The notes below the pieces were generated by a model that saw nothing but the letters and a program-made list of their open reading frames with translations, had not been told where the DNA came from and ran no database searches. From an uncultured Clostridiaceae bacterium (GTDB taxonomy: Bacteria > Bacillota > Clostridia > TANB77 > CAG-508): a stretch of 62,485 nt of DNA. The stretch spans positions 1-62,485 of the forward strand of contig CANRSN010000011.1 of the NCBI GenBank assembly GCA_947642455.1. The letters run 5' to 3'. The position numbers were made by a program, and so were the translations under genes. The number at the start of each line of letters is the position of its first letter. Position 1 is the first letter of the stretch. Positions 7,540-52,532 of this stretch are shown here, one piece after another.

Positions 7540-7720
7540 GTTACAATTCACTGCCCAATTTCTATTTAGGCAATATAATATTTATTTAAACGACGTTTTG
7601 CGCAGGGAAGCTCCCAGAGTGGACATGACCCAGAGCGATTGGCGAAGCCAGTAAAAAACTTCGTTTAAATAAATATTATATTGCCTAAAATATATAATTT
7701 TACAAACTGTGAATTATAAC
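7540..7720 (+). repeat. Palindromic element copy R1 (core plus TTACAATTCAC arms)
   Basis: Ends are near-perfect inverted repeats (GTTACAATTCAC at left, its imperfect complement at right). Inner arms of about 32 bp (AGGCAATATAATATTTATTT and onward) pair across the element. They enclose a GC-rich core containing GCGCAGGGAAGCTCCC and TGGCGAAGCCA. The right end runs into hisS: the last codons and TAA stop of hisS are formed by the terminal repeat. Outer segments are of type alpha (AATTTCTATTT) at left and beta (AAAATTATATATTTT) at right. Confidence 0.9.
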
Positions 7721-9018
7721 TTTGCCTTTAAATCTTCTATTTTCAAGGTTTCCTGTTCTCCAGTTTCCATATTTTTTAAAGTTACTACATTATTTGTAAT
7801 TTCATCTTCTCCTATTACTATTACAAATGGAATTTGCAACCTATCTGCATACTTAAATTTTGCCTTTATTTTTTTATTTCCAATATATACTTCTGTTGGT
7901 ATATTATTCTCTCTTAAAAATGTTGCTACTTCTATTGGTTTAGTCATATCTTCTACCATTGATACAACTAGTACCTTTGATATTGATTTTTGTTCTTCTT
8001 TAATTGCTTGTAACTCATTTAGTTTATAAAATAAACGTGTAAGACCTATTGAAACACCTACACCTGGTAATTTTCTATCTGTATAATATTCTGCTAAGTT
8101 TTCATACCTTCCACCAGAACATACACTTCCTAAACTTCTATATTCATTTAAAAAAGTTTCATATACTGTTCCTGTATAATAATCTAACCCTCTTGCTATT
8201 GTTAAATCTACTCTAAAGTTTTCCTCTGGTAACCCAAATATTCTAATATATTTTATTACTTCTTTTAATTCTTCTACTCCTGTTTTAAATATATCATTTT
8301 GTATATTTAACTGTTCTAACTTTTGCAATTTTTCATCTGTTGACCCTTGTATTTGTATAAATTCTATTATTTTATTTATTGCATCTTCTGGTACATTTAC
8401 TTTTGCTAATTCTTGAATTACTTTTTCTTTTCCTATTTTCTCTAATTTGTCTATTATTCTCATTATTTCTATAGAATTTTCTTCTTGCTCTAATTCTTTA
8501 AATAATCCATTTAAGATTTTTCTATTGTTTATACATATTGTAAAATTATCAAAACCTAACTCTTTTATGGTATTATATATTATTTTTGGTATTTCTGCAT
8601 CATTTATAATACTTAATTCTCCATCTCCAATAATATCTATATCACATTGGTAAAATTCACGAAATCTACCTTTTTGTGGTCTTTCACCTCTATATACTTT
8701 ACCTATTTGATACCTTCTGAATGGAAAACTAAGTTCATTGTAATATTGTGCTACATATTTTGCAAGTGGCACTGTTAAATCAAACCTTAATGCTAAGTTA
8801 TTGTCTCCTTTCTGGAATTCATATATCTGTTTTTCAGTTTCCCCTCCTGCTTTTGCAAGAAGCACTTCTGACATTTCTATTATTGGTGTATCTATTGGTA
8901 AAAAGCCAAATTTCTCGTATGACTTTTGAATTTTCTCTTTCATTTTATTAAACATTATTTGATCTTTTGGTAATAATTCCATAAATCCTGGTAATGTTCT
9001 TGGTTCTATTTTATTCAT
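7714..9018 (-). CDS. hisS: Histidyl-tRNA synthetase
   Basis: A 434-residue class II aminoacyl-tRNA synthetase that charges tRNA-His. Motif 2 and its flanks are plain (LRFDLTVPLAKYVA, then YQIGKVYRGERPQKGRFREF), and the histidine-binding signature ARGLDYYTGTVYE is at about residue 290. The C-terminal anticodon-binding domain runs from about 340 to the end. Length is normal (about 420-430). The gene lies alone between the MBL hydrolase and repeat R1. Its last two codons and stop (AAG TTA TAA) come from the terminal inverted repeat of R1, so the native C-terminus was replaced by the insertion. Confidence 0.96.
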   Translation of the reverse strand: MNKIEPRTLPGFMELLPKDQIMFNKMKEKIQKSYEKFGFLPIDTPIIEMSEVLLAKAGGETEKQIYEFQKGDNNLALRFDLTVPLAKYVAQYYNELSFPFRRYQIGKVYRGERPQKGRFREFYQCDIDIIGDGELSIINDAEIPKIIYNTIKELGFDNFTICINNRKILNGLFKELEQEENSIEIMRIIDKLEKIGKEKVIQELAKVNVPEDAINKIIEFIQIQGSTDEKLQKLEQLNIQNDIFKTGVEELKEVIKYIRIFGLPEENFRVDLTIARGLDYYTGTVYETFLNEYRSLGSVCSGGRYENLAEYYTDRKLPGVGVSIGLTRLFYKLNELQAIKEEQKSISKVLVVSMVEDMTKPIEVATFLRENNIPTEVYIGNKKIKAKFKYADRLQIPFVIVIGEDEITNNVVTLKNMETGEQETLKIEDLKAKL

Positions 9019-9081
9019 ATTTAATCACATTCCTTCCTCAAGGCACAATTTTTCATATACACATTATACAAAGTAGCAATT

Positions 9082-9729
9082 TTAAGGTAACCTAGGTCTT
9101 AAAGTCAAATAGATAGGTTCTTCTTCTTTTATTCTGGTAGACTTTCCATGACCTGGGTATACAATAGTATCATCTGGCAAAATAGCAAGTTTATTAGTTA
9201 TAGAATTTATAATATCTTCAAAACTACTTGTAGGTAAATCTGTTCTTCCCCAAGTACCTCTAAATAGCGTATCGCCAGAAAATAGCAACTTTTCCTTTTC
9301 ACAATATAAACAAGTTCCTCCAGCAGTATGACCTGGTGTATGAATCACTTTAAATTCAGTACTTCCAAGATGAATTAAATCATTATCTTCAACTCTAGAG
9401 TCTGCATCTATTATTAGACCATCCTGATTCCATATTGTAAAACTTATTTCAGGATTAAATAAACTCTCTTTGTCTAATCTATGAACTAATATTTTCCCAC
9501 CTTTAGCCTCTTTTATTTCTTTCACAGCACCAATATGGTCACCATGACAGTGAGTTAAATAGATATACTTTATTTTATCTATTTCTAAAACATCTAACAT
9601 TTCTAATATTTTTTCTGGCTCTCCACCTGGGTCTATCACCATAGTTTCTTTTGTATTTTCATCTACAACAATATAACAATTTGTAAGTTGCCCTATTAAT
9701 GTATTTACTTGAATTCTTTTTAATATCAT
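9082..9729 (-). CDS. MBL-fold metallohydrolase (glyoxalase II-like)
   Basis: This 215-residue cytoplasmic protein has the metallo-beta-lactamase zinc motif THCHGDH at about residue 60, a second ligand site in TPGHTAGG, and SGDTLFRGTWGRTD, typical of the hydroxyacylglutathione hydrolase-like (YqgX) group. Substrate cannot be fixed from sequence: members hydrolyse thioesters such as S-lactoylglutathione or related thiol adducts. It stands between hisS and relA, an arrangement common in Clostridia. The ATG is preceded by a weak AAAGGG-type site. Confidence 0.88.
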   Translation of the reverse strand: MILKRIQVNTLIGQLTNCYIVVDENTKETMVIDPGGEPEKILEMLDVLEIDKIKYIYLTHCHGDHIGAVKEIKEAKGGKILVHRLDKESLFNPEISFTIWNQDGLIIDADSRVEDNDLIHLGSTEFKVIHTPGHTAGGTCLYCEKEKLLFSGDTLFRGTWGRTDLPTSSFEDIINSITNKLAILPDDTIVYPGHGKSTRIKEEEPIYLTLRPRLP

Positions 9730-9829
9730 TTTTCCCTTTATGATATATTTAATAACTTAAATAACCATATTCTCCTTCCTTTAAATTCATATCGTAACTT
9801 TTGTTCTAATTATTTATATAGATAATATT

Positions 9830-9886
9830 ATTACATTGGTCTGTCCCTTTTGGGACATTTTTGTCCCAATTTGCTCCGTCCCATTT
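9830..9886 (-). repeat. 57-bp GGGAC repeat, copy 1
   Basis: This segment (read on the minus strand: GGGACGGAGCAAATTGGGAC, then a short palindrome, then GGGACAGACCAATGTAAT) matches 23393-23450 almost base for base in the opposite orientation. It directly follows the relA stop codon. It contains the dyad GGGAC/GTCCC and could fold as a hairpin in the relA 3' end. Confidence 0.85.
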
Positions 9887-12091: not shown

Positions 12092-12183
12092 TATAACATC
12101 CCTTCTTTCAATATACTAAATTTCAAAAAATAAATATTAATAACACAGCAAATAGTTTAAGACATCTGAATAGTTACCATATA

Positions 12184-14695: not shown

Positions 14696-14824
14696 TCTCT
14701 TTCCTCCATTTTTCTCTAGTACAAACTTTTGTAAATAATTGATCTTTTGTAAAATACAAAAACTCAAATTCTTTTTACTTTGAATCATTATAGCATTTAA
14801 CCTTCTTGCTTGCAAGTAAAAATG

Positions 14825-15059
14825 TTTTAGTTTAAGTATTTTTTGAAATAGTAAGTTTTATACGTAAAATATATACTCTACACAGCAATTAATATTTATT
14901 TTTTCAGAGTTCTTTACTGGCTTCGCCAATCGCTCTGGGTCGTGTCCACTCTGGGAGCTTCCCTGCGCAGAACTTTTCAAAAATAAATATTAATTACTGT
15001 GTAGATGTTTAAGAAATATAGCATAAAACTTACTATTTCAAAAAATACTTAAACTAAAA
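14825..15059 (-). repeat. Palindromic element copy R2 (same core, different outer arms)
   Basis: The outermost 36 bp (14825-14860, starting TTTTAGTTTAAGTATTTT) are repeated perfectly inverted at 15024-15059. Further in, CTACACAGCAATTAATATTT pairs with its complement with one mismatch. The central core is the same GC-rich sequence as in the other copies but in reverse orientation. The arms show no similarity to the TTACAATTCAC type beyond the AATATTTATTTT stretch next to the core. AATG flanks both sides and may be a short target duplication. Confidence 0.9.
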
Positions 15060-15135
15060 AATGTAATTATTACAAAAACAAATTAACTTGCCTTTGTAAT
15101 AATTACAATATTTTTATACTTACTTTCAGTTTTTA

Positions 15136-18863: not shown

Positions 18864-18966
18864 ATCTTTCCTCCTGTTTTTTGAATATATAATTTGCTAC
18901 TTTAATAGTTACATATTATTATTTTACTACATTTTACATGCTTTGTCAATTTTAGCTTAAATTCAC

Positions 18967-19186
18967 AAAAAAAGAGTACAATTTGTTACATTTCACAGAT
19001 ATAATATTCACTTAAATACTATAATATTTATTATAACAAAGTTTTGCGCAGGGAAGCTCCCACAGTGGACATGACCCAGAGCGATTGGCGAAGCCAGTAA
19101 AAAACTTTGTTAAAATAAATATTATAGTACTTATATAATTCTGATTTTAAGCTGTGAAATGTAACAAATTGTACTCTTTTTGGCTG
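18967..19186 (+). repeat. Palindromic element copy R3 with flanking direct repeat
   Basis: Outer ends AAAAAGAGTACAATTTGTTA pair with the right end. Inner arms ACTATAATATTTATT and onward flank the GC-rich core. The 10-bp sequence TTAAATTCAC occurs on both sides (18957-18966 and 19187-19196), consistent with a target-site duplication. The right copy contains the TGA stop codon of mutS, so insertion took place at the mutS 3' end. Because the arms begin AAAAAGAG and end CTCTTTTT, the transcript could act as a large terminator on either strand. Confidence 0.92.
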
Positions 19187-19192
19187 TTAAAT

Positions 19193-21850
19193 TCACTTTA
19201 TTTTCTCTTTAATTCTTACCAAAGTATTCAAAGCATCGATTGGAGTTAATTGGTTCAAATCTATTTTATCAATTTCAGTCGCAATTTCTGCAAGTTTATA
19301 GTTACTCATATCAAGTTGACCTTCAACAACTTTTTTGCTTTCCTTTTCTACTTGTGACAAAACCTTTCCATTTAAAATATTTTTCTTCTCCAAAGAACGT
19401 AATATTTCATTTGCCCTTTTAGTAACATTTTTCGGTACACCTGCTAGTCTTGCAACATGTACACCATAGCTCTCATCTGTTCCACCAGACACAATTTTTC
19501 TCAAGAAAATAATATCTTCACCTTTTTCTTTTACTGCAATAGAATAATTCTTAATACCTTCTAATTTATTTTCTAAATCTGTCAATTCATGATAATGTGT
19601 TGCAAACAATGTTTTCGCTCCACATTTTTCCTTATCTGCAATATATTCTGCAACAGCCCAAGCAATAGAAAGTCCATCATATGTTGAAGTTCCTCTACCA
19701 ATTTCATCAAGAATTACCAAACTATTTGAAGTCGCATTTTTCAATATTGTAGCAACTTCCATCATTTCAACCATAAAAGTACTTTGTCCCATACTTAAAT
19801 CATCTGAAGCTCCAACTCTTGTGAAGATTTTATCTACCACACCAATTTTAGCATAAGATGCAGGTACAAAACTACCACATTGTGCCATTAAAGCAATTAA
19901 AGCAACTTGTCTCATATATGTAGACTTTCCAGCCATATTTGGACCTGTTATAATTGCAAGCCTTGAATCTTCCTTATCTAAATATGTATCATTTTGCACA
20001 AAACTACCTGCTGGTAGCATTTTTTCTATTACAGGGTGCCTTCCCTCTTTTATATCAATCTCACCACTATTATCAACTATTGGCTCTACAAAATTCATAT
20101 CCTCTGCTACAGTAGCAAACGAACATAGTACATCTAATGCAGAAACCGCTTCTGAAGTTTGCCTTAACCTTTTTATATTTTTATCTATTTCTTCTCTTAT
20201 TTCTACAAAAGCATTATATTCAAGATTTATAACCTTTTCTTCTGCTCCTAATATTTGATTTTCTAAATTCTTTAATTCTTCTGTTATATACCTTTCTCCA
20301 TTTGTTAAAGTTTGTTTTCTAACATACCTTTCTGGAACTAAGCTAACATTAGATTTTGTAACCTCTATGTAATACCCAAACACTCTGTTAAATCCTACTT
20401 TTAATCCTTTTATTCCTGTTTGTTCTCTTTCTCTTGCTTCTAGTTCTATTATCCACCTTTTTCCGTCAGTTGTTGCCTTTTTTAAAGTATCTATTTCTTC
20501 ATTATAACCAATTTTTATAATTCCACCTTCCTTAATTGTAATTGGTGGTTCATCTACAATTGCCTTATCTATTAATGTATATATATCTTTTAACTCATCT
20601 AATTTACTATATAATTCTTGCAATTTTTTCGACTTTGTATTTGATAATACTTTTTTTACCTCTGGCAATTGTCCTGCCGAATTTTTTAGTGACATTAAGT
20701 CTCTTCCATTTGCATTTCCATATGATATCTTTCCCGCAATTCTTTCTATATCATATACCTTTTTTAAGGCTTCTATTATATCACCTCTAAGAATTACATC
20801 TTGTTTCAATTCTTTTACTGCTTCTAATCTTTCATTAATTTCATCAACATCTATTAGAGGATCATTTAACCATCTTCTAAGTAGCCTACCACCCATAGAA
20901 GTTGAAGTTTTATCTAATACCCACAAAAGAGTACCTTTTTTTGATTTATCTCTCATTTTTTCAGTAATTTCTAAATTCCTTCTAGCATTTATATCTAAAG
21001 ACATATACTTAGTTGAATTATAGCAAATTATTTTATTTATATGATCTAGTTTTGTTTTTTGTGTATCTTCTAAATAAGTTAATAATCCATTTATTGAACT
21101 TACAGCAACTAAATTTTCTTTCATATTTTCTATAGTTTTATCTCTTTCATTTACAAAACTATATTTTAGAGCTAATTTTTCATATATTGGTTCAAAGCTC
21201 TCTTCTTTCACTCTTGATACATATACTTCAAATCTTTCTTTTATTTTATTTATTTCTTCTATTGATTCATACATAAATGGATTTACTACAAGCTCTGCTG
21301 GTGAATACCTTGATATCTCATCTAATAATTTAGGGAAATTATTTTCATCTGTTATTTGAGTTGTTCTAAACTCTCCTGTTGATATATCACACACACTTAT
21401 ACCAAAAAAAGTACCTGACTTATATATAGACATTATAAAATTATTTTTCTTTTCATCTAATAAATTACTTTCTATTACAGTTCCAGGTGTTACTACTCTT
21501 ATAACACCTCTTTCAACTATACCTTTTGTTGTTTTTGGATCCTCTAATTGTTCACAAATTGCAACTTTATAGCCTTTTTCTATTAACCTTGATATATATG
21601 TTTCTGCAGCATGAAAAGGAACTCCACACATAGGAGCTCTTTCCTCTTGTCCACATAATTTTCCAGTTAATGTTAATTCTAATTCTCTTGAAACTGTTAT
21701 TGCATCTTCAAAAAACATTTCATAAAAATCACCTAAACGATAAAATAATATGCAGTCCTCATATTCTTTTTTAGTTTCTAAATATTTTTGCATCATTGGT
21801 GAAAATTCTTCTATGTTAAAATCTTCTATTTTTGTTAGCTTCTCTGCCAT
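19193..21850 (-). CDS. mutS: DNA mismatch repair protein MutS
   Basis: About 885 residues from ATG at 21850 (MAEKLTKIEDF), 12 nt after AAAGGA; a TTG-led frame would extend to 21883. It recognises mismatches and recruits MutL. The N-terminal mismatch-binding domain has the Phe-x-Glu signature in FYEMFFEDA. The ATPase domain has GPNMAGKSTYMRQ (Walker A), DEIGRGTSTYDG (Walker B region) and FATHYHEL. Length fits the family. It follows miaB by about 70 bp, and no mutL is in view. The stop codon lies within the direct repeat flanking R3. Confidence 0.96.
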   Translation of the reverse strand: MAEKLTKIEDFNIEEFSPMMQKYLETKKEYEDCILFYRLGDFYEMFFEDAITVSRELELTLTGKLCGQEERAPMCGVPFHAAETYISRLIEKGYKVAICEQLEDPKTTKGIVERGVIRVVTPGTVIESNLLDEKKNNFIMSIYKSGTFFGISVCDISTGEFRTTQITDENNFPKLLDEISRYSPAELVVNPFMYESIEEINKIKERFEVYVSRVKEESFEPIYEKLALKYSFVNERDKTIENMKENLVAVSSINGLLTYLEDTQKTKLDHINKIICYNSTKYMSLDINARRNLEITEKMRDKSKKGTLLWVLDKTSTSMGGRLLRRWLNDPLIDVDEINERLEAVKELKQDVILRGDIIEALKKVYDIERIAGKISYGNANGRDLMSLKNSAGQLPEVKKVLSNTKSKKLQELYSKLDELKDIYTLIDKAIVDEPPITIKEGGIIKIGYNEEIDTLKKATTDGKRWIIELEAREREQTGIKGLKVGFNRVFGYYIEVTKSNVSLVPERYVRKQTLTNGERYITEELKNLENQILGAEEKVINLEYNAFVEIREEIDKNIKRLRQTSEAVSALDVLCSFATVAEDMNFVEPIVDNSGEIDIKEGRHPVIEKMLPAGSFVQNDTYLDKEDSRLAIITGPNMAGKSTYMRQVALIALMAQCGSFVPASYAKIGVVDKIFTRVGASDDLSMGQSTFMVEMMEVATILKNATSNSLVILDEIGRGTSTYDGLSIAWAVAEYIADKEKCGAKTLFATHYHELTDLENKLEGIKNYSIAVKEKGEDIIFLRKIVSGGTDESYGVHVARLAGVPKNVTKRANEILRSLEKKNILNGKVLSQVEKESKKVVEGQLDMSNYKLAEIATEIDKIDLNQLTPIDALNTLVRIKEKIK

Positions 21851-23392: not shown

Positions 23393-23450
23393 AAAATGGG
23401 ACGGAGCAAATCGGGACAATATTGTCCCAAAAGGGACAGACCAATGTAAT
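23393..23450 (+). repeat. 58-bp GGGAC repeat, copy 2
   Basis: The same sequence as at 9830-9886 in reverse orientation: GGGACGGAGCAAATCGGGAC, a dyad AATATT, then GTCCCAAAAGGGACAGACC. It lies upstream of miaB and abuts the degenerate palindromic element R4. The two copies differ at only a few positions around the central dyad. Confidence 0.85.
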
Positions 23451-23458: not shown

Positions 23459-23648
23459 GAGAAAAGAACAATTTGTTATAATTCACAGATATTAATATCT
23501 ATTTAAACAATATAATATTTATTTTAACGAAGTTTTTCTTAAGGAAAGCTCCCACAATACAAATAACCTAGAGCTACCCACGAAGCCAGTAGAAAACTTA
23601 GAATATATATAACTATAACACATTGTTTTAAGCGCAAAAAAAGAATGC
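23459..23648 (+). repeat. Palindromic element copy R4 (degenerate)
   Basis: The left arm is well preserved (AATTTGTTATAATTCACAG, then ATATAATATTTATTTTAACG). The core is mutated but alignable (AGCTCCCACA, CGAAGCCAGT). The right arm is largely eroded and no longer pairs well. It seems to be an old copy between rpmE and miaB. Confidence 0.75.
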
Positions 23649-24098: not shown

Positions 24099-24180
24099 TT
24101 GAATTCCTCCTTACTTCTACTACATATTTAATTATACTATATTTTTTATTTTTGTCAATATGTCCTGAATTTTTTCAGCA

Positions 24181-24386
24181 AAAAAGAGTACAATTTGTTA
24201 CATTTCACAGATATAACATTCACTTAAGTACTATAATATTTGTATTGAAAAAGTTTTGCGCAGGGAAGCTCCCAGAGTGGACATGACCCAGAGCGATTGG
24301 CGAAGCCAGTAAAAAACTTTGCCAATACAAATATTATAGTACTTATATGCTTCTAACTTTAATCTGTGAAATGTAACAATTTGTAG
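24181..24386 (+). repeat. Palindromic element copy R5
   Basis: Left end AAAAAGAGTACAATTTGTTA; arms AGTACTATAATATTTGTATT pair with the right side. The core is identical to that of R1. Next to the core both arms carry GTATTG/CAATAC where R3 has ATTTTA-type sequence, so the pairing is kept although the bases differ. The right end stops 11 bp before the stop codon of the gene at 24397. Confidence 0.9.
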
Positions 24387-24396
24387 TATTGTGGCT

Positions 24397-31721: not shown

Positions 31722-31907
31722 TTGTTACAATTCACAGTTTATAAAATTATATATTTTAGGCAATATAATATTTATTTTAACGAAGTTTTGCACAGGGAAG
31801 TTCCCAGAGTGGACATGACCCAGAGCGATTGGCGAAGCCAGTAAAAAGCTTCGTTAAAATAAATATTATATTGCCCAAATAGAAATTGAGCTGTGAATTG
31901 TAACAAT
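31722..31907 (+). repeat. Palindromic element copy R6 (core flipped relative to outer arms)
   Basis: Ends GTTACAATTCACAG and its complement. The left outer segment is the beta type (AAAATTATATATTTT) and the right is alpha (AATAGAAATTGAG), the reverse of R1 and R7, yet the core is in the same orientation as in those copies. The core has small changes (GCACAGGGAAGTTCCC). It ends 12 bp before the stop of the next gene. Confidence 0.9.
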
Positions 31908-32381: not shown

Positions 32382-35300
32382 CTAAAACTTAGTTATTTTT
32401 TTAGCAACATATTGCAATATTCTAACTGCATCTAATGTATTAACTCTGTTATCTTTATTTGTATTAGCTGCCAACATCTGAGCCTCTGTTAATGTTGTTT
32501 TCTTAGCAACATACTGCAATATCTTTACTGCATCTAATGTATTTATTTTTCCATCATTATTAACATCTCCTAGTGTATATCTAACTCCTGGCTTTACTTC
32601 TGTACTATCCTTTTTTACAGTAATTGGTATAACCTTTTTTATATTTGACCCATCTGTAGTCTCAATATACAATTCTGTAGTACCACTTGCAAGTGGTGTA
32701 ATCGTTCCATTTTGATTTACTGTAGCAATTTTTGTATCTTTTATACTATATTTTAAGTTTCTATTTTTAGCATTATATGGAAATGCATAAGCTGTTATAT
32801 ATATTGTTCTAGTTATTTCTCCAGTAGGAGTATTATATACTCTAATGTCTGTACATTTTATATCTACATTTACATTGATATTAATGCTTTTATTTGAACC
32901 ATCTGTTGTTTTTACTGTAATTATTGCTGTACCATTTCCTACTGCTCTTATTCTTCCATAACTATCTACTGTTGCTATATTAGTATCAGATGAAGTATAA
33001 GACAATGTAGTATTTGTAGCCAATTTAGGTTCATATTTTACTGTTAATTCCTGATAAGTATTAGTTGTTGCAAGATTATAGCTTGATTTTTCGGCTATTA
33101 AAGATGTAATTTTAATGTCTATTGCTTGAAAATTAATATTATATTCATTTGCATGTGTCTGTGCAGTAGAATCCTTTATTCCATATATTGTCATATTAGG
33201 ACAATTTACAAATACTTCTTCTTTATAGTAACTAGTGCCCACACTTGCATTTGAGTTCAATATATACACTTTAGTTAAGTTAGGCATATCTCTTATAGCT
33301 CCAACAGCAAAACCAGTAACATTTTTTAAGTAATGTAACTCTTTTAAATAACTGTTACTTACAAATGACCAATTTCCAATTGTTGTTACTTCAGATGGAA
33401 CTGTAAATATTTCATCCTGTTTTCCAGAAGGATATAATAGTAACCTATATGGCTTATTATTCCATTTTTGATATACAACACCATCTATTGATATATAATT
33501 TGAGTTATTGGTATCTACACTAATTGCTTTTAAGCTATTACAATTACCTGCAAAATTTTGTGTTAATGATGTTACACTTTGAGGAATTGTAAGTTGCTCT
33601 ATTGAATCACAATAACTAAAAGAAGCCTCAATTGTTTTTACCGTATTTGGTATTGTAATTTTCTTTATTGTAGTATTATGTTCATTATATTCTGCAAAAA
33701 TGTAATTTCCAAGTGCTGTTACTGTATAACCATCTATTTGAGTTGGAATTGTTATATTAGTAGCATTTCCTAAATATTTTGTTATTTTTATTGTATTATC
33801 ATCTAATATTTTATATTCATATTGATTTGTAAATGAGTCTGCCACTGTAACTTTGCATGTAGCCTTTATTGAGTTATTTGCCTCACATGTAGCTGTAATT
33901 ATTGCACTTCCATTTGCTATTGCTGTAATTTTTCCTAGTGAATTTACCTTTGCTACATTTTCATTACTTGAAGTCCATATTATACCTGTATAATCTGTGG
34001 TTGGACTTGGAGTATATGTAGCACTTATAGTAGTATTTTCTCCATTTTTTAGATATATAGAATTTTTCGCAAGTTCTAATTTAGTTATAGGAGTATTTTG
34101 TTTAAACACACGTACCCATGTACTTACTATTACATTTCCACTAGCATCGCAACATTCCACTGTTGCTGTTCCCTCTTTTTGAGCTGTTATTGTTCCATCA
34201 TTAGCTACTGTTACATTTTCATTACTAGCCTTTACACTAGAAAATTCTATACCTTCAGTTGCTTTATATTTTTGACCTACAATCATCATTTTTTCATTTG
34301 TTAATACTCTTGTTTTAATACTTGCATTACTGTTTTTTACTTCTAACTTTTCTACATTTTTGTTATTATAAAAAGCATATCTTCCAATTGTTGTAACACT
34401 TTCTGGAATTACTATATCTCCTGTTAGCTTTGAACAATATTCAAACGCTTCGTACTCTATTATTTTTACAGAATTAGGAATAGTTATTGTTTTTAAACCT
34501 GTGCTTTTAAATGCACCATGACCTATTTTTTCTAATTTTGATGGAATAATTATTTCTTCAAGTACTGTATCTCCCGAAAATAAAAGTTCTGAAATCTCTG
34601 TTAAATTTTCTGGAAGTTTTACATTAGTAAGTTCGCTCATACTAGCAAATGCTGCCCTTGAAATTTTAGTTACACTATCTGGTACAATAATTGATTGAAG
34701 TTTTGTTCTATAAAAAGCATTTGCTCCTATTTCAGTTAGGGTTGATGGCAATGTTACACTTTGTAAATTTTTTGCCTCATCAAAACATCCATTTGGAATT
34801 ATTGTATACCCTTCTGGAATTATTACTGTTTTAATAACTTCACTTTGATAAAAAGTTTGATAACCTAGTTCTATTTTCATCCAAGGATATTGGATTTTTG
34901 GTAAAGTTATACTAGATACTCGATTGTCAAAATTTCCTATTGTATATTGCCCTTTTTCACTATCATAACTATATTCAAAATGCTCAAATTTTGTAAGGTC
35001 TACTATGCCTTGATTATTATAATTATTAAAAATTGATTCATTTGAAATATCTATTGCAAAAAATATTGCCTTTTCTCCAGTAGTAACACTCCATACCACT
35101 TTATTATTATATATAATCGGTTTACAATCTGATAAACGTCCACCTATTGTTATTACATCACTTAAATAATTACCATTTGCATCAATCATTACTGCTTTTA
35201 TAGTTGTTGAGTTATTTGCAACTTCTTCCCACATTACTACCAATTTATTGTCATTTATTTTAACCAATTGAGGTGTATTACAATATATATTGCCATCTGC

Positions 35301-38300
35301 CGTATAATTAGTAAGCCATTTTATGCTTGTGTTTTCTTCTGTTACTTTACTTTTATTAGTAACAGTTATAAATATATTTCTCTTTTCATAATAATTGCTA
35401 TCACTGGAAGAATTTTCATTTTGTTTTACTGAATTTCCTGCTATAATACAAGAAGTTTCTGACAACTCAGCTCCCCCTATGGAAACTCCTGTATTATTAT
35501 TTCCACTAGTTCCTGAAATTAAATATGTATATGCTATTTCTGTTGGTCTCTCTTTTCCTATTTGTGTTTTACATATAGATATTGCTCTTGGGTATGCATC
35601 TCCATGGTCTATTGTATAAATATAACTGTCATCTGCTAATATATATTGGTTAAATGAATGACTTACATACCCTGTTCCAATATTACTTACACCATGCCTT
35701 GTATATAATTTTTGCATTGTTTCTTCATCAATTCTAATTAGCATATTTGATTGGTGATGATATCCATCTTCTGATTTATACATTTTATGAGAAGTATCTA
35801 TATATAATATTCCATTTTTTTCTACCATTCTACAACTACCAGCATCAAATGGTATATATGTATTTATAGCATTTATTGAACATTGTGATAGTTTATTCCA
35901 GTTTTTATCATATTTTACAACTCTTATTACTTCTACATTATCATCATCTTCCAAATTTCTTTGTCCAAATACAAGAAAATTGTATTTTTCTCCACTAAAA
36001 TATCCACCACAAATCTCTAATTCATACTTAATTTCTTTTACAGATATATAGTTAAAATTTGAATCATATTTTTCTATTAACACTTTAGATTTTGAAGAAT
36101 CGTTTCTGTCAAATACTAATTGCACCTTTTGCAAAGTTCCATCACTATTATTATTTAAGTAACTACCTACTATACTTCCATGTATACTATAATTATTGTT
36201 TGAATAATTGTTATAACTAATATTAGTTTTACTTTCAGTAAAATATGTTTTTGTTGTTTCTGTATTGTCTCCTGTATTTCCTGAAATCTCTGAAGTTGGT
36301 ATGGTTACCATGCAAGTTGCTGTTTTTTCTCCTACTCTAGCTGTTATTGTTGCTGTTCCTGGAGCTACTGCTGTTACTTTTCCATTTGAAACAGTTGCAA
36401 TTTTTGAATCACTTGTAGACCACTTTACATTAGGGCTATCTGTTGTGTTTTGTGGTCTATATGTAGCACTTAAAGTCTCTGTATTACCAGTTTTAGCAAG
36501 AGTAATTTGTGTTTTATTTAATGTAACATTTGTTACAGGATTATATTGCCCTGGTGTAAATGAAGCCATTCCATTATCTATATCTCCTATAATAGCTGCA
36601 TCTATTGCATTTACTATACCATTTCCATCCATGTCTGCTATTGCTATTTCATCTGGTGTAAGTTCTTCGTTTGACCAATCTAATAGCATTGCTGCATCTA
36701 TTGAATTTATTACTCCATCTCCACTTAAATCTCCTGGGTATACTTTACTTCCATCACTTAAAGTCCTTAATACACATACATAAACCCAACAACTGTCTGT
36801 TCCAAAAGCATTTTTAGCATTAATATGTACAAACCCACCACTTTTAGCTGTTACTAATCCATTATTGTCTACAGTTGCTATGTTAGGATCTTCAGAAGTC
36901 CATGTTGCATTAGATGTTTTTCCATTACTAAGCATAGCATTTAGCTGTATATTACTTCCTATAGCATTAATTTGTGCCTGATGTTTATCTAATGACATTG
37001 TAATATCTTCAGTATTTGTAACTATTTTTACACTTTGTTTTAGTCCTGAATATTCTTCTTTTACCTCAATTGTAATAGGATCTGTTATAATGTCTTTCAC
37101 TATTATTATTCCATTTTGTGTTACATCTACTTTTGAAGTATCTGAAGATCTCCATACCATTTTTATATATTCATTAGTCCCTGTTGTTCCAATTTTAGCA
37201 TTTAATTTACTACTTTGCCCCACCAAAGTTTTATATGTAATATTATCGACTTTTGTTAAGTCACTTGATGCTTCAATACTTAAATTAGATATTCTTTTGT
37301 CTATTTTACTTGTATCTGCATATTCGAATCTAGTTCTATATTTGTAATCTACTAATGTATTAGTATTTTCATCAAGTACATTTTTTACAACAATTTCATA
37401 TACTTCTCCCACTATTGGGTTTATTGAGCTATCATAAAAAACTACTTTATTATTTAATGACTGTATTGATTTTGTATACCTTGTAAAATACCTACTACTA
37501 GTGTTTTCTTCTTCATTCCAAGTCCACCTTTTTCCATCATTTAAGCGTTTTACTTCTACTGTTGTATTTTCCTGAACTTTATATCTTTTTACAAATTGTG
37601 TACTCCACTTAAAACTTCTAATTATTGATTCCCAAAAAGTAATACCATTTGCAGGCCATGTTTGTGCTACAATATCAGATGCTTTATATCCTGAAAATTC
37701 ATTTGCAAATGTAAGGTTACTTATTCCATACCCAAAGTTTGTAAATTCTGTATCTAATACTTTTGTTCTATGGCTAAAATTTTGAGGTCTTTCTGAGCTA
37801 TCATCTACAAACATATTTATATGGTACATCATAACTTCTTCTGAGTTACTAGTTTGTGAATATCCTAAATTTTCTGCATACCCTTCTGAAGCAGCTAAAC
37901 ATTTTTGATAAAATTCATCACTTACTCCTTCTGGTTTTGGTGGTATATGTTGAATATCTAGCCCTAGCTGTGTTTTTCTATAGCTTATTAATGTTGATAT
38001 ATATTGAGATATTGTAAATGCTTTTTCATCTAATTTATATGGTGAAAGTCCTTCTCCTGCTCTTATCATGTTAACATAATCTACAATTCCTTGTTTTTTA
38101 GAATCTTTAAGTTCTCCTGCTACTAATGTTTGAGCATTTGTAGTTTGTGGTTCGACTTTAAATAACCCTTCTTCTTGATATAACTTTTCTATTGCAGATT
38201 TATATAAGTTTCTTCCATTTTCTAATTTTTGTTGTTCTTCTTCTGTATATGGTATTTCACTATTTATGTCCAAAACATCTTCTCTTACCATACCCATAGT

Positions 38301-39158
38301 TAATATTTTTGTATCTGAGTTATAATCAAAAATTGCAATATTTTGTTCTCCTAAGTCTTTTTCTGCATATGTAGCTGATGTTGCAAATATAAGTGGATTT
38401 AATATATAATAGTTTGCATATAAAAAATCTACTTTGTCTCTTGATCTTATCCCTCTATATTGGCTTGTTTTACCAGTTCTATTTAGCATGTCTTTTATAT
38501 TTGTTTGATATTCTTTTAATTGTTGATTTATGTAAAAATAGTTATCATTAAAAATCGCTTTAGAAGTAATTCCTTTTTTAGCTCTTATTGCATTAAACAT
38601 TTCTACTGAATGTTTTATTAAGGTATATAAATATTTATTTTCATCTGATTTATAATTATTAATATATTTATTTACAAATTCATTATACGAATTAGCACCT
38701 ACACTCCATTTTTCTTTGTTATAATATACCCCACCTATTATTGTTCCATCTGAATTATACATACATCCATGAAGTATTCCATTTTCTTTATAATTATATA
38801 AATCTCCATAACTATATTTATTTGTTTTATATGTAGAATCTACAGAACCATAAGATGCAATATCTCCATTTTCATCAGTTTCTAAGTATAAATAATTACT
38901 ATAATTGTTATCTGTATAAAAGGTATATGCACTTCCTCCAAATGCAGATGGTGTTTGTATTTTAGGTTCACCTAATACATTTATAATATCATTTATTTTT
39001 GTACTTGTAGTTACTGTTAATTCATATTTGCCTGTTCCTACCGAAATTAATAAGTTTGGGTCTGTTGTAGCTTTTATAATATTTATTGGTAATACATTAG
39101 CTAGTAAAATGGCTATTATAATTATATTTAAAATTTTAGTTATTATTTTACTCTTCAT
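32382..39158 (-). CDS. Giant secreted protein: CAP, Big2, leucine-rich and two dockerin-like modules
   Basis: 2258 residues with a signal peptide (1-30). Approximate order: CAP-associated N-terminal domain (40-160), CAP/SCP domain (355-515), Ig-like Big2 repeats (630-770), an internal dockerin-like calcium module (GDLSGDGVINSIDAA and ADMDGNGIVNAIDAA, 805-860), another Big2 (870-940), a beta-rich region (980-1430), BspA-type leucine-rich repeats (1460-1600), Big2 (1690-1772), more leucine-rich repeats (1800-1990), Big2 (2010-2185) and a C-terminal dockerin type I (GDVNNDGKINTLDAVKILQY and its repeat, 2193-2258). There is no sorting signal, so attachment may be through a cohesin-like partner. 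The start is supported by GAGGG 7 nt upstream. A terminator follows. The role is probably surface adhesion or matrix; no catalytic residues are evident apart from the CAP fold. Confidence 0.9.
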   Translation of the reverse strand: MKSKIITKILNIIIIAILLANVLPINIIKATTDPNLLISVGTGKYELTVTTSTKINDIINVLGEPKIQTPSAFGGSAYTFYTDNNYSNYLYLETDENGDIASYGSVDSTYKTNKYSYGDLYNYKENGILHGCMYNSDGTIIGGVYYNKEKWSVGANSYNEFVNKYINNYKSDENKYLYTLIKHSVEMFNAIRAKKGITSKAIFNDNYFYINQQLKEYQTNIKDMLNRTGKTSQYRGIRSRDKVDFLYANYYILNPLIFATSATYAEKDLGEQNIAIFDYNSDTKILTMGMVREDVLDINSEIPYTEEEQQKLENGRNLYKSAIEKLYQEEGLFKVEPQTTNAQTLVAGELKDSKKQGIVDYVNMIRAGEGLSPYKLDEKAFTISQYISTLISYRKTQLGLDIQHIPPKPEGVSDEFYQKCLAASEGYAENLGYSQTSNSEEVMMYHINMFVDDSSERPQNFSHRTKVLDTEFTNFGYGISNLTFANEFSGYKASDIVAQTWPANGITFWESIIRSFKWSTQFVKRYKVQENTTVEVKRLNDGKRWTWNEEENTSSRYFTRYTKSIQSLNNKVVFYDSSINPIVGEVYEIVVKNVLDENTNTLVDYKYRTRFEYADTSKIDKRISNLSIEASSDLTKVDNITYKTLVGQSSKLNAKIGTTGTNEYIKMVWRSSDTSKVDVTQNGIIIVKDIITDPITIEVKEEYSGLKQSVKIVTNTEDITMSLDKHQAQINAIGSNIQLNAMLSNGKTSNATWTSEDPNIATVDNNGLVTAKSGGFVHINAKNAFGTDSCWVYVCVLRTLSDGSKVYPGDLSGDGVINSIDAAMLLDWSNEELTPDEIAIADMDGNGIVNAIDAAIIGDIDNGMASFTPGQYNPVTNVTLNKTQITLAKTGNTETLSATYRPQNTTDSPNVKWSTSDSKIATVSNGKVTAVAPGTATITARVGEKTATCMVTIPTSEISGNTGDNTETTKTYFTESKTNISYNNYSNNNYSIHGSIVGSYLNNNSDGTLQKVQLVFDRNDSSKSKVLIEKYDSNFNYISVKEIKYELEICGGYFSGEKYNFLVFGQRNLEDDDNVEVIRVVKYDKNWNKLSQCSINAINTYIPFDAGSCRMVEKNGILYIDTSHKMYKSEDGYHHQSNMLIRIDEETMQKLYTRHGVSNIGTGYVSHSFNQYILADDSYIYTIDHGDAYPRAISICKTQIGKERPTEIAYTYLISGTSGNNNTGVSIGGAELSETSCIIAGNSVKQNENSSSDSNYYEKRNIFITVTNKSKVTEENTSIKWLTNYTADGNIYCNTPQLVKINDNKLVVMWEEVANNSTTIKAVMIDANGNYLSDVITIGGRLSDCKPIIYNNKVVWSVTTGEKAIFFAIDISNESIFNNYNNQGIVDLTKFEHFEYSYDSEKGQYTIGNFDNRVSSITLPKIQYPWMKIELGYQTFYQSEVIKTVIIPEGYTIIPNGCFDEAKNLQSVTLPSTLTEIGANAFYRTKLQSIIVPDSVTKISRAAFASMSELTNVKLPENLTEISELLFSGDTVLEEIIIPSKLEKIGHGAFKSTGLKTITIPNSVKIIEYEAFEYCSKLTGDIVIPESVTTIGRYAFYNNKNVEKLEVKNSNASIKTRVLTNEKMMIVGQKYKATEGIEFSSVKASNENVTVANDGTITAQKEGTATVECCDASGNVIVSTWVRVFKQNTPITKLELAKNSIYLKNGENTTISATYTPSPTTDYTGIIWTSSNENVAKVNSLGKITAIANGSAIITATCEANNSIKATCKVTVADSFTNQYEYKILDDNTIKITKYLGNATNITIPTQIDGYTVTALGNYIFAEYNEHNTTIKKITIPNTVKTIEASFSYCDSIEQLTIPQSVTSLTQNFAGNCNSLKAISVDTNNSNYISIDGVVYQKWNNKPYRLLLYPSGKQDEIFTVPSEVTTIGNWSFVSNSYLKELHYLKNVTGFAVGAIRDMPNLTKVYILNSNASVGTSYYKEEVFVNCPNMTIYGIKDSTAQTHANEYNINFQAIDIKITSLIAEKSSYNLATTNTYQELTVKYEPKLATNTTLSYTSSDTNIATVDSYGRIRAVGNGTAIITVKTTDGSNKSININVNVDIKCTDIRVYNTPTGEITRTIYITAYAFPYNAKNRNLKYSIKDTKIATVNQNGTITPLASGTTELYIETTDGSNIKKVIPITVKKDSTEVKPGVRYTLGDVNNDGKINTLDAVKILQYVAKKTTLTEAQMLAANTNKDNRVNTLDAVRILQYVAKKITKF

Positions 39159-43341: not shown

Positions 43342-43535
43342 GGTTACAATTCACAGCCTAATTTCTATTTAGGCAATATAATATTTATTTTTAGAAGTTT
43401 TGCGCAGGGAAGCTCCCAAAGTGGACATGACCCAGAGCGATTGAAGCAATCTTTGATTGCGACAGCAAAAAACTTCGTCAAAATAAATATTATATTGCCT
43501 AAAATATATAATTTTATAAACTGTGAACTGTAACA
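43342..43535 (+). repeat. Palindromic element copy R7 (core hairpin replaced by another hairpin)
   Basis: The arms are of alpha/beta type as in R1 (left AATTTCTATTT, right beta). The core begins as usual (GCGCAGGGAAGCTCCC) but where the other copies have the small hairpin TGGCGAAGCCA, R7 has a different one (GCAATC TTT GATTGC) at the same position. The hairpin is kept while its sequence is not. Confidence 0.9.
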
Positions 43536-43540
43536 AAAAA

Positions 43541-46417: not shown

Positions 46418-46488
46418 TGTTACAATTCACAGCTCAATTTCTATTTAGGCAATATAATATATAATTTTATAAACTGTGAATTGTAACA
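46418..46488 (+). repeat. Coreless short element R8
   Basis: About 70 bp: GTTACAATTCACAGCTCAAT, the alpha segment, AGGCAATATAAT, then a beta segment and the complementary end. It is exactly the outer arms of R1/R7 with the core and inner arms missing. A direct repeat AATCT (5 bp) flanks it. Orientation alpha to beta. Confidence 0.85.
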
Positions 46489-46577: not shown

Positions 46578-46688
46578 TTTAAGTAGTAAAATACCTCCAT
46601 ACATATTCACTTATGTAAATGGATATATGCAATTTTAAAAAACATATTTTCTATAAATATATCTAGCAAATGAAAGGAATGAATTAAT

Positions 46689-46988: not shown

Positions 46989-47160
46989 AACAAAAGAGGC
47001 ATGATTAAAATATTTAGACCTTTTAGATTACTTTTCATGCCTCGTCTTTGTTCGCCCGCCAAAATTGCTTTAGCAATTTTGTGTGGAATGTTTGCGAAGC
47101 TTTTATATACCAGGAAAGTATAACAATTTGTTATACTTTCCTGGTATATAGCAAATTGTA
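46989..47160 (+). repeat. Short repeat unit with hairpins after the LysM gene
   Basis: It contains the inverted repeat GAGGCATGA / TCATGCCTC with a T-rich tail (possible terminator for the LysM gene), the stem CAAAATTGC / GCAATTTTG (47060-47081), and the dyad ACCAGGAAAGTATAACAA / TTGTTATACTTTCCTGGT. The last part and its flank match 54268-54350 downstream of the Cys-rich gene. Confidence 0.7.
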
Positions 47161-47166
47161 TAAAAA

Positions 47167-47210
47167 CAACCAGATAATTTAACTCATTTGAGTTAAATTA
47201 TCTGGTCATC
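47167..47210 (-). terminator. Intrinsic terminator
   Basis: ACCAGATAATTTAACTCA pairs with TGAGTTAAATTATCTGGT (18-bp stem, very small loop). On the minus strand it is followed by TTGTTTTTAT. It lies about 30 bp after the stop of the 120-residue gene at 47236. Confidence 0.75.
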
Positions 47211-47235
47211 AACCTAAAAGTTCACATATGCTTAC

Positions 47236-47598
47236 TTACTTATAAAGCATCTTTTTAGATCCATATTCTAAAATCATCTTTCTAAAAAATGCTTCTTTGA
47301 TTCTTTCTTCTTCTACTTCACATTCTCCATTCCACACAATGCAAATATCACTTGTTGTTGCATCTGCAAGTAACATTATACGATAGCCATGATGTCCTTT
47401 TTCTGAATTCTTGTTTTCCAAAAATGCAATTAGTGCACCTGGTGGCACATCTTTTATAAAATGTGCTGCCTTTTCATCTGATTCATAAGTTATCATTTTG
47501 GAAATGTTCTTTCCTAAACAAAAGGTTATTTGTACACTTCCATTTTCCTCATTCCACCGCATTTGTGGCTGTACAATAACAGAATCATTTTTGTTCAT
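47236..47598 (-). CDS. Hypothetical protein (120 residues)
   Basis: A soluble protein not recognised here. It has a mix of beta-strand-like segments in the first half (GSVQITFCLGKN, ALIAFLENKN), two cysteines, and an acidic C-terminal helix (EVEEERIKEAFFRKMILEYG). Its ribosome binding site is strong (AGGAGG, 7 nt before ATG), and a terminator follows, so it is a separate unit. It lies between the LysM gene and the acetate kinase cluster with no clear link to either. Confidence 0.6.
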   Translation of the reverse strand: MNKNDSVIVQPQMRWNEENGSVQITFCLGKNISKMITYESDEKAAHFIKDVPPGALIAFLENKNSEKGHHGYRIMLLADATTSDICIVWNGECEVEEERIKEAFFRKMILEYGSKKMLYK

Positions 47599-47670
47599 AT
47601 GTTATCCTCCTAATATTTTTTGTGTTTTAATATTAACATAACTCTATGAATTTGTCAATTTTTTAGTGAA

Positions 47671-48873: not shown

Positions 48874-48978
48874 ATTTTATACATTCCTTGTATAATAATT
48901 TAGGTTTTTAAAAGGTTACCTATAAACCTTTATACTAATTACATATTTCTTCCTAAAGTATAAATAACAATTTTATAA

Positions 48979-50169: not shown

Positions 50170-50214
50170 AATTTTACTTGTATGAGATTACTCATACACT
50201 CCTTTCTCTTTAAT

Positions 50215-51222
50215 TTAATTTTTATTTTGTGCTTGTGCCTGAACCGCTGTAATTGCTATAACTCCAGCAACATCTTTACTACTGCAACCTCTAGATAAAT
50301 CATTTACAGGTTTTGCAATACCTTGACACAAAGGTCCATATGCTTCTGCTTTTGCTAACCTTTGTACTAATTTATATCCTATATTTCCAGCATCTAAGTC
50401 TGGGAATATTAATGTATTTGCATGTCCTGCAACAGGACTTCCTGGTGCCTTACTTGCTCCTACTTCTGGTATTATTGCTGCATCTAGTTGTAATTCTCCA
50501 TCTGCAATCAAATTTGGTTCTTTCTCTTTTAATAACCTAGTTGCTTCTACTACTTTTTCTGTAAGTGGTGATGATGCACTTTCATATGTAGAATATGAAA
50601 GCATAGCTACTTTTGCTGGCTTTCCTACTAATTGTTCAAAGCTTTTACTAGATGATATTGCTATTTCTGATAAACTATCTGCATCAGGATATTCGTTCAA
50701 ACCACAATCTGAAAATATAAAGGTTCCATTTTCTCCATATTCGCAATTTGGTACAACCATTAAGAAAAATGCTGATACAAGTTTTGTATTTGGAGCTGTT
50801 TTTAATATTTGTAACGCTGGTCTTAATGTATTTGCTGTTGAATGACATGCTCCAGATACTAGACCATCTGCATCTTCCATTTTTACCATCATCATTCCAA
50901 AATGAGTATAATCTTTCATTAATTCTTTTGCCTTATCTAATGTCATTCCTTTTGCTTTCCTTAACTCATAAAACTCATTTGCATATTTGCTAAAGTTTTC
51001 TGATGTTTCTGGATCTACTATTTTGGCTTTTGATATGTCTAAGTTATTTTCCTCTGCTAGTTTTAATATTTCTTCTTTTTTTCCAATTAATACTATATCA
51101 CTATATCCTTCTTTTAATGCTATTGAAGCTGCTTCTACAACTCTTATATCATTACTTTCTGGTAATACTATAGTTTTTATGTCTTGTTTTGCTCTTTGTT
51201 TTATTTCTTCTATAAAAGACAT
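50215..51222 (-). CDS. pta: Phosphate acetyltransferase (short form)
   Basis: 335 residues, the short single-domain Pta that exchanges CoA for phosphate on acetyl-CoA to make acetyl phosphate for AckA. Typical segments: TIVLPESNDIRVVEAA near the start, GLVSGACHSTANTLRPALQI, LADGELQLDAAI-type motif (IADGELQLDAAI) and LIFPDLDAGNIGYKLVQRL near the end. The start follows AGGAGGAAGAAA. It is the first gene of the pta-ackA-ackA run. Confidence 0.96.
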   Translation of the reverse strand: MSFIEEIKQRAKQDIKTIVLPESNDIRVVEAASIALKEGYSDIVLIGKKEEILKLAEENNLDISKAKIVDPETSENFSKYANEFYELRKAKGMTLDKAKELMKDYTHFGMMMVKMEDADGLVSGACHSTANTLRPALQILKTAPNTKLVSAFFLMVVPNCEYGENGTFIFSDCGLNEYPDADSLSEIAISSSKSFEQLVGKPAKVAMLSYSTYESASSPLTEKVVEATRLLKEKEPNLIADGELQLDAAIIPEVGASKAPGSPVAGHANTLIFPDLDAGNIGYKLVQRLAKAEAYGPLCQGIAKPVNDLSRGCSSKDVAGVIAITAVQAQAQNKN

Positions 51223-51332
51223 TTTCTTCCTCCTTATATTTATTTTTTAATATTCTTATTATATATTCATTTTTAAAAAAATACAATAGTAACATTTATA
51301 AAATAGCAAACTTCTAAAAATAACTATATTCA

Positions 51333-51427
51333 AACAGTGGAAACGATCCTTTTTGTTCGTCTTTCCAACTAACAATAGCAGTAATGCTAATATAGAAAAC
51401 GAACAAAAAGGATCGTCCCCAGTGTTC
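51333..51427 (+). repeat. Isolated palindromic repeat (GGATCGTCCCC type)
   Basis: An imperfect inverted repeat of about 32 bp (AACAGTGGAAACGATCCTTT at the left, the complement of AACACTGGGGACGATCCTTT at the right) with a central hairpin TAGCA GTAA TGCTA. It lies upstream of pta, downstream of the GerQ-like gene. The sequence is unrelated to the other repeats in the window. Confidence 0.75.
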
Positions 51428-51443
51428 TACTACACTTTTGCTT

Positions 51444-51731
51444 TTATCTCCAATAGTTTACTGGATATGGCGAAATTGTAACAAATTTAATTGAATAAAT
51501 ATCTGCATAAGTAAGAACTCCACTTTCTAATGCACGAAGTAGAATATAACTTGCACCAACATCCTCCAAAATTCCTATTCTGTCAACTAAATTATTAGTT
51601 CCAATCAAAAATTCAACTCTAACTAGCTTTCCAATTTGTTCTCTAAGAAAAGCTGGTGTATAAATATTATTAGTCAAAGTCTCTGGTGTAGTATTATTAA
51701 TTGAAACATTTCTTTTATTACTTTCTTCCAT
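51444..51731 (-). CDS. GerQ-like spore coat protein
   Basis: 95 residues. The segment PAFLREQIGKLVRVEFLIGT and onward to ADIYSIKFVTI (residues 27-87) resembles the conserved domain of GerQ, the coat protein needed for proper function of CwlJ. Residues 1-24 are polar and probably disordered. The next gene upstream is a broken SleB/CwlJ-family hydrolase, which matches the gerQ-cwlJ pairing known in Bacillus. The assignment is by domain likeness and context, not by full length (Bacillus GerQ is about 180 residues). Confidence 0.7.
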   Translation of the reverse strand: MEESNKRNVSINNTTPETLTNNIYTPAFLREQIGKLVRVEFLIGTNNLVDRIGILEDVGASYILLRALESGVLTYADIYSIKFVTISPYPVNYWR

Positions 51732-51811
51732 CTAAAATTCATTCCTTTCTTTTTATTGTAAAGTACCAACCTAAAAGGTTAAAACAACTCAATTTCAAAT
51801 AAACGATTCCA

Positions 51812-52260
51812 TCAAGTTTGCAAATATTGAGGTGTTGGTCTAAAAAAGCAATGTTCTATAATTCTAGTATGAAGAGTACCTGTTCCGTTATATGGAAAAG
51901 TTTGAGGACAACTTGGTTTAAAAGGATTCATATACCAAAGGCAGTCTCCTACTTCTGGAATTCTATTACCTGCAATAGCCCAATCTGCAATATTATAATG
52001 TACCTCTGTAGGATTCATATTATAAATATTTTGAGGATTATATTTATTTCTTAGAGTTTCAGTTGCACAATCAAATTGCCCTTTTTGAAATAGTATATTT
52101 CTTATACTTCCACCTTGAGAAATTCTTGAATATTCCCCGAGTAGGAGTATTAACTCTATTCATTATAACAGATGCCGCTGCCTTCATTCCGATTTTCTCC
52201 CTCTCCTCCAGCCTCACATTGAATCATCCTTGCTAATAATTCTCTTTCTGAATATGCCAC
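51812..52260 (-). pseudogene. Spore cortex-lytic hydrolase (SleB/CwlJ family) with two frameshifts
   Basis: From GTG at 52260 (AGGTG 7 nt upstream) frame one reads VAYSERELLARMIQCEAGGE, containing the catalytic Glu region. Near 52192-52196 an extra base shifts the frame; frame two gives IGMKAAASVIMNRVNTPT. Near 52135-52141 another extra base leads to frame three, GEYSRISQGGSIRNILFQKG and on to HCFFRPTPQYLQT with a stop at 51812. Joined, it makes a complete family member of about 148 residues. Both shifts lie at homopolymer runs, so real decay and sequencing error are both possible. It pairs with the GerQ-like gene. Confidence 0.85.
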
Positions 52261-52312
52261 TTTCTTCACCTCTAATCTTATAATATGTAACTAAAAAAAA
52301 CATGTGCATTTG

Positions 52313-52532
52313 CAGAAAAAAGAGTACAATTGTTATAATCCATGGATATTAATATCCATTTAAGCAATACAATATTTATTTTAACGAAATTTTGCGCAGG
52401 GAAGCTCCCACAGTAGAAATGACCCAGAGCGATTGGCGAAGCCAGTAAAAAATTTCGTTAAAATAAATATTATATTGCTTATAAGCTTATAATTTCAAAC
52501 TATGAATTATAACAATTGTACTCTTTTTTCTG
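52313..52532 (+). repeat. Palindromic element copy R9 with a 9-bp target duplication
   Basis: The ends are perfect inverted repeats, CAGAAAAAAGAGTACAATTG at left and the complement at right. GTGCATTTG flanks both sides exactly (52304-52312 and 52533-52541), a good target-site duplication. Inner arms (CAATATTTATTTTAACGAAA) pair; where other copies have CGAAG/CTTCG this one has CGAAA/TTTCG, again changing on both sides. It lies between the divergent cortex hydrolase and guaD genes. Confidence 0.94.

Follow-up and report, generated by a model that had tools for sequence, protein, structure and literature searches.

The 62,485-nt stretch of an uncultured Clostridiaceae genome analyzed in this study (contig CANRSN010000011.1, hereafter the window) contains eight copies of a palindromic element in which a GC-rich core lies between AT-rich inverted arms. 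We consider these elements to be, probably, modular, non-autonomous, hairpin-forming mobile elements resembling miniature inverted-repeat transposable elements (MITEs). Each would consist of an inner unit, a core of about 60 nt within perfect or near-perfect AT-rich inner arms, located in the middle of an outer shell carrying its own terminal inverted repeats. A transposase acting in trans may move the shell of type F2/F3, carrying the inner unit along as a passenger. Gene conversion between the arms, or template switching by a polymerase, would explain why the arms stay complementary and how the spacer flips, and deletion at the hairpin tip would yield core-less forms. The core may be conserved as a cis signal for a trans-acting factor, exposed when the palindrome forms a hairpin. 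The preliminary description of this DNA had seen a dispersed palindromic family with a conserved core and variable pairing arms; that picture stands, with the arms now divided into a shared inner stem and outer shells and the family now read as mobile and MITE-like.

Copies, anatomy, and target-site duplications

A covariance model trained on other copies plus some of those in the window recovered all eight copies that had been pointed out earlier, seven of them at E-values of 7.6e-30 to 8.3e-23 and R4 (match at 23515-23610) at 3.7e-8. These seven also matched on the opposite strand with lower scores because they are palindromes. Two core sequences had been described as shared: GCGCAGGGAAGCTCCC is exact at 7600, 14953 (minus strand), 19046, 24258, 43402, and 52394 and has two mismatches at 31790, with shuffled windows averaging 0.02 matches, and six copies contain TGGCGAAGCCA without a mismatch. 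The seven intact copies are palindromes in which inverted arms of 24-42 nt, 88-100% complementary, enclose the core. The G+C content of the R1 core (33/53, counted by hand) differs from that of 2-kb windows (23-31%), the R1 and R5 cores show no differences, and the R2, R3, and R9 cores vary at few positions. The pairing arms, the unusual core composition, and the core identities of the preliminary description were thus all confirmed.

The host genome (2.22 Mb) contains the 16-mer of the core exactly 71 times and a 37-nt core pattern, with up to three mismatches, in 97 copies, with no match for either reversed control; parsing at up to four mismatches gave 99 copies. Eight more diverged copies were read in L119-L124, L133, and L138 (L numbers denote loci and G numbers genomes), together with a partial one in L129. 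An assembly artefact of the metagenome bin might be considered for a genome in 85 contigs with 5.63% contamination, but it is extremely improbable, given that the flanks differ, target-site duplications are present, and the core recurs in other genome assemblies.

The copies share an inner unit of about 110-125 bp (inner arms plus core), comprising a GC-rich core of about 53-60 nt, a short stem formed by AAGTTTT and AAAACTT, and inner arms that carry AATATTTATTTT and the sequence complementary to it. Except in a few decayed copies, most columns of its alignment exceed 90% conservation. This unit is enclosed by outer shells with three or more end types, and on each side an asymmetric, mostly unpaired stretch separates the terminal stem of the shell from the inner stem. 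Shell F1 starts with GTTACAATTCACAG; F2 and F3, the interiors of which differ, start with CAGCAAAAAAGAGTACAATTTGTTACA, which includes an F1-like end; F4 starts near TTAAGTTTCGGTATTTT; and F5 starts with TAACTATTCAGA. The copy in L044 has yet another shell. In local alignments, the F1 and F2/F3 ends were related (0/1000 shuffles as good), the F5 end was weakly similar to F1 (3.6% of shuffles as good), and the F4 and L044 shells resembled none of the others. Nested elements were seen by eye, with F4 within F2 in L104 and L133 and F4 within an F1-like shell in L064, and the inner unit is flipped relative to its shell in R6, L048, L050, L092, and L112.

The elements in the window are 181-241 bp long, too short to hold a transposase gene. 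Shell F1 encloses R1 (7540-7720, plus strand; core at 7600-7652), R6 (31724-31904, plus strand), with its inner unit flipped relative to R1, and R7 (43343-43534, plus strand), in which the third hairpin of the core is longer. R2 (14822-15062, minus strand) has shell F4, with outer arms at 14822-14861 and 15023-15062 and the core on the minus strand. Shell F2 is found in R3 (18966-19186, plus strand), which adjoins the 3' end of mutS and is flanked by the 9-bp duplication TTAAATTCA at 18957-18965 and 19187-19195, and in R5 (24175-24390, plus strand), which has the R1 core, a degenerate right end, and no clear duplication. R9 (52313-52532, plus strand) has an F3-like shell and the exact 9-bp duplication GTGCATTTG at 52304-52312 and 52533-52541. 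R4 (23466-23640, plus strand; ends approximate) is decayed, lacks the 16-mer, and has partly lost its right arm.

Exact 9-bp direct repeats flank 18 of the 46 copies with F2/F3 ends (0.6% in a null of mismatched flanks), and repeats with at most one mismatch flank 29 of 46 (null 4.6%), the ends being allowed a 3-nt slide in data and null alike. Because exact repeats fall to 4/46 at 10 bp, the duplication length is 9 bp. These results indicate that at least one shell type, F2/F3, has moved around the genome. The elements have terminal inverted repeats and are short and multi-copy without a transposase gene (181-241 bp; 97 cores), and target-site duplication is established for shell F2/F3 only; this shell therefore has the MITE features tested, save an autonomous partner.

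The F2 end sequence was absent from the 26 congeners searched, and the F2 element had no match in them except one in G014, which showed no palindrome, apparently lay at a gene start, and was judged to be chance. As the congeners also had no covariance-model matches, the F2 shell was, within the genus, observed in this species only. A BIME-like (bacterial interspersed mosaic element) binding site of a chromosome-organizing protein, kept by selection, would agree with the conserved core, the intergenic position of the window copies, and the number of about 100 copies. However, since the elements were not found in the 26 congeners, that one chance match apart, a general chromosomal function is disfavored and we regard this explanation as very unlikely.

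Coupled arms, core-less derivatives, and possible exchange of cores

Alignment A1 comprised 50 of 89 distinct copies, four decayed or truncated loci and one other having been dropped beforehand. In these copies, both partners have changed in 21 of the 34 inner-stem pairs, pairing is kept in 95.3% of cells, and the whole structure has 253 doubly changed cells versus 84.8 in shuffles. Shifting the partner by 1-3 columns lowers pairing to 41-47%. Some of the both-sided change reflects differences between shell families. When only changes inside a family were counted, double Watson-Crick changes numbered 32 (22 distinct) versus 0.6 expected with independently mutating arms, and one-sided changes numbered 42 (31 distinct), of which 15 leave G.T; these counts omit copies with a shell match below 0.8, and their cells share ancestry and are not independent events.

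Such coupling might reflect selection on a dispersed structured RNA, in which the core would be a non-coding RNA tip on a long stem (a 3' end stabilizer, terminator, or regulator) with the arms kept by selection for RNA pairing. Consistent with this, the core is conserved across genera with invariant positions, its third hairpin varies in length with pairing potential kept, and the whole element folds very stably (R5 predicted at -78.9 kcal/mol, z = -9.8). However, long-term RNA selection usually leaves more G.U cells than the 18 found in the stem (our own count from the per-pair table). RNAalifold identified five pairs only in the cross-genus core alignment (-1.95 kcal/mol), and the core therefore appears to be conserved chiefly as sequence, its variable hairpin having been judged by eye. 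The structured tip of the preliminary description is supported in part: one short hairpin is clear, whereas the consensus fold across genera is weak.

No Rfam family matched an element above the gathering threshold, and a relaxed E-value, applied to one element and ten loci of relatives, gave nothing credible; a known RNA family was rejected, the lax matches being far below threshold. In the literature, the 16-mer was unmatched and, by titles and the beginnings of abstracts, no paper was evidently concerned with this core, in agreement with the earlier statement that no described family with this core was known; the libraries searched gave no match either. The flanking frames, taken crudely as the longest ones, are not preferentially oriented (68 same, 80 opposite, p = 0.37), and the neighboring frame pairs, called on both sides for 54 of 99 copies, are 6 convergent, 11 divergent, and 37 tandem. 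With convergent pairs not in excess, a terminator role was rejected. Overall, we consider the RNA explanation unlikely.

According to passages of two papers, template switching between inverted repeats homogenizes arms and inverts spacers (PMC8604942) and can create and maintain perfect stems (PMC8794818). Template switching is preferred here because of the coupled double changes, the few G.U intermediates, and the flipped cores; the arm coupling fits this DNA process better than RNA selection. Loss of SbcCD is not supported as the reason that the palindromes survive, as SbcD-like matches below the cut-off were obtained for 21 of the 22 genomes compared, whether or not these carry elements.

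Core-less derivatives (solos) were also identified. One pattern gave twelve F1/F3 solos, and further solos were read among other loci; the window holds an F1 derivative at 46419-46487 (weak model match, E 0.34) and another in inverted orientation at 58058-58119. All twelve retain part of the inner arm and many joints fall at short repeats (both by eye), which fits deletion of the hairpin tip better than empty shells. Since some joint forms recur, it is possible that the shell predates insertion of the inner unit. No solo with F5 ends was found. A wider ATTTGTT pattern matched 9 sites per strand versus 5 in the control, and its matches are hence partly chance. Additionally, L125 and L130 contain very short derivatives of the F2 end (CAG...CTG, about 29 bp), and the one in L125 seems to be flanked by a duplication. 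In these forms, deletion may have removed nearly the whole hairpin.

Core identity between shells (F1-F2 0.921, F1-F4 0.907, F2-F4 0.945) is mostly as high as within shells (F1 0.890, F2 0.963, F3 0.919, F4 0.929), computed without copies having a shell match below 0.8. The core block V2, which differs from V1 at 5 of 6 positions, and V1 itself each occur in shells F1-F5 (V2 in 7/27 F1, 1/20 F2, 3/12 F3, 3/20 F4, and 7/16 F5 copies). These results indicate that either cores were exchanged or homogenized by gene conversion, or the inner unit passed from shell to shell; both readings fit the data.

Several points weigh against reading the family as MITE-like mobile elements. No convincing target-site duplication is evident for shell F1, and those of F4 were seen by eye only, in three copies (R2, L096, and L108). 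No autonomous copy was recognized, in that no pair of F2 ends bracketed a gene among the places listed, and no transposase was found, transposase families not having been searched for. Read by eye, none of the twelve F1/F3 solos is a clean empty shell. The F5 cores form a slightly separate group (identity 0.869-0.884 with those of other shells and 0.892 among themselves). The host genome gave a weak match for an SbcD-like protein (35 bits, below the cut-off), and loss of palindrome cleavage is unsupported. We infer the recognition signal from the conservation of the core. Furthermore, much of the diversity of shells could be divergence rather than new hosts for the inner unit, because F1 has ends related to those of F2 and F3, and F5 is perhaps F1-like.

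Core in other genomes and insertion context

The preliminary description had called for a search of the core in other genomes, and the core does recur outside the window, in the host genome and in other genera. With strict filters, a covariance model gave matches in 24 of the 390 genomes searched from the host's family, the host included, in 5 of 39 genera. One locus was read in 19 of the 23 other matching genomes (L140-L158; G067, G097, G189, and G313 left out), and 14 of these 19 had the same core within other arms. In L153, L155, L156, and L158, the arms were similar but the middle differed, and L157 represents one more relative. A core-only model matched 5 of 385 sampled genomes of the order, all of the same family and from five genera, with the match in G140 partial; the core was not found in sampled genomes from other families of the order.

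In sequences from 84,980 species, an exact pattern matched 35 stretches, 27 of them in Clostridia metagenome-assembled genome records with arms of 12-33 nt; a stricter pattern gave no match. The other eight (L162, L166, L170, L185, L186, L187, L189, and L190) were rejected as chance, having no arms and a longest exact inverted repeat of 5-9 nt, and their hosts belong to Streptomyces, Sphaerisporangium, Pelagibius, Gemmatimonadales, and Lentisphaeria. Neither of two exact patterns matched viral contigs, and one 118-base query had no match in plasmids and phages. Record titles of relatives name sheep rumen and 'Lapin' (read as rabbit), and the remaining relatives and the organism of the window may also inhabit the gut. 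No recurrent mobile-element protein was noticed by eye beside the copies of relatives. A shared neighbor gene was rejected, as only apparently syntenic housekeeping clusters were seen (by eye), several of them joining loci of one genome.

The cross-genus core reads GCGCAGGGANGCTCC..C.GAGTGGAAATGACCCTAGGCGAATGG, followed by a hairpin of variable length and CAGYAAGG, and some positions are invariant. The arms vary between genomes yet remain complementary. In L158 and L191, where the middle is an alternative one, the 3' frame still resembles GGCGAA-TGGAG-hairpin-CGACANCAA. A second core class with another middle (AGCGANCAACCGNAGCG and similar) in the same kind of arms was observed in L153, L155, L156, L158, L161 (about 2950-3110), and L191 (about 6540-6690). 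In G234, the palindrome lies within a repeat of about 430 bp that is often at contig ends (L179:144-570 and L167:433-859).

The occurrence of the inner unit in shells of several end types would also be expected if the unit were itself a mobile hairpin entering the loops of existing hairpins via single-stranded DNA, with the shells as targets; attC, REP, and IS605-type substrates provide analogies for such insertion. Some observations on insertion sites point in this direction. Of 41 copies in the genomes of relatives, 10 had an outer inverted repeat beyond the arms at or above 99% of the null (three copies with too little flank dropped), so some copies, not most, sit inside other palindromes. 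The core strand is the locally G-poor strand in 67 of 99 host copies (p = 0.0006) and in 27 of 42 copies of relatives (p = 0.09). Of four syntenic comparisons, two show a short hairpin in the gap of the element-free relative (L169 for the L160 site and L163 for the L161 site, the correspondence being rough); L161 for the L163 site gave weak folds only, and the fourth was unreadable. Nevertheless, 31 of the 41 copies have no significant outer repeat, intergenic gaps commonly hold short hairpins, and clean empty shells were not seen. The strand bias is modest and non-significant in relatives, neighboring copies that share a contig are not independent, and a recombinase was neither found nor searched for. 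We therefore regard this explanation as unlikely.

In a more speculative form, also improbable, the inner unit would be a new mobile hairpin module with the conserved frame GCGCAG ... GGCGAATGG-hairpin-CAGYAAGG and at least two alternative middles. It would be exposed only via a palindrome of almost any sequence, be recognized by a single-strand recombinase or an RNA-guided factor, hop into hairpin loops, and then be transported and amplified by the shells of other elements.

Other repeats were observed near the elements. A different palindromic repeat (ACGATCCTTTTTGTTCG / CGAACAAAAAGGATCG) lies at 51322-51437 of the window, and similar pieces flank elements in L044, L062, L099, and L111; it is probably another outer repeat family. 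Two adjacent perfect palindromes at 47104-47150 and 47169-47206 have arms of 23 and 18 nt and spacers of 1-2 nt, and a sequence like the former adjoins the element in L084. A short repeat with the GGGAC/GTCCC motif (GGGACGGAGCAAATCGGGACAATATTGTCCC) adjoins elements at 23405-23445 of the window and in L091 and L131. Elsewhere in the window, Rfam matches above threshold identified an RT-14 RNA (531-690, minus strand) and a bacterial RNase P class A RNA (54415-54763, minus strand), and a 2258-aa open reading frame occupies 32382-39158 on the minus strand.

Comparison with known repeat systems

A single genome here offers a natural set of about 100 long palindromes in which one can count how often arms copy each other, spacers invert, and tips are lost, which makes template-switching models in bacteria directly testable. 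The conservation of the core across shells and genera points to a mobilizing or binding factor in these uncultured Clostridia.

Bacterial MITEs and other small repeats (Correia/NEMIS, ERIC, RUP, RPE, and others) are described in part of PMC2229807 as 100-250 bp long and present in many copies, with terminal inverted repeats, target duplications, and long stem-loops predicted in their transcripts. The elements analyzed here are similar in size, copy number, terminal inverted repeats, target duplications, and long stem-loop potential. Unlike MITEs, they have one GC-rich core common to several shell types and genera, are mostly palindromic, and make 9-bp duplications; the terminal 5'-TA-3' listed there for several MITE families (PMC2229807) was not noted here. 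With REP/REPIN palindromes and their RAYT transposases (PMC3733652 and PMC2817692), they share dispersed palindromes and high copy number, but at 181-241 bp they exceed the 20-40 bp given for REPs. Nor was a GTAG- or CGTC-tag architecture recognized in the elements by eye.

The attC sites of integrons are palindromic but imperfectly so, their arms vary, their tip is structured, and they can function as single-stranded hairpins. The elements resemble them in the imperfect palindrome, the variable arms, and the structured tip. In contrast to attC sites, they form no gene-cassette array in the window; the eight copies are spread over 45 kb, kilobases apart and several beside housekeeping genes, integrases not having been searched for. 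These elements are distinguished by a single conserved core found across shells and genera, together with arms that behave like DNA copied from one arm to the other.

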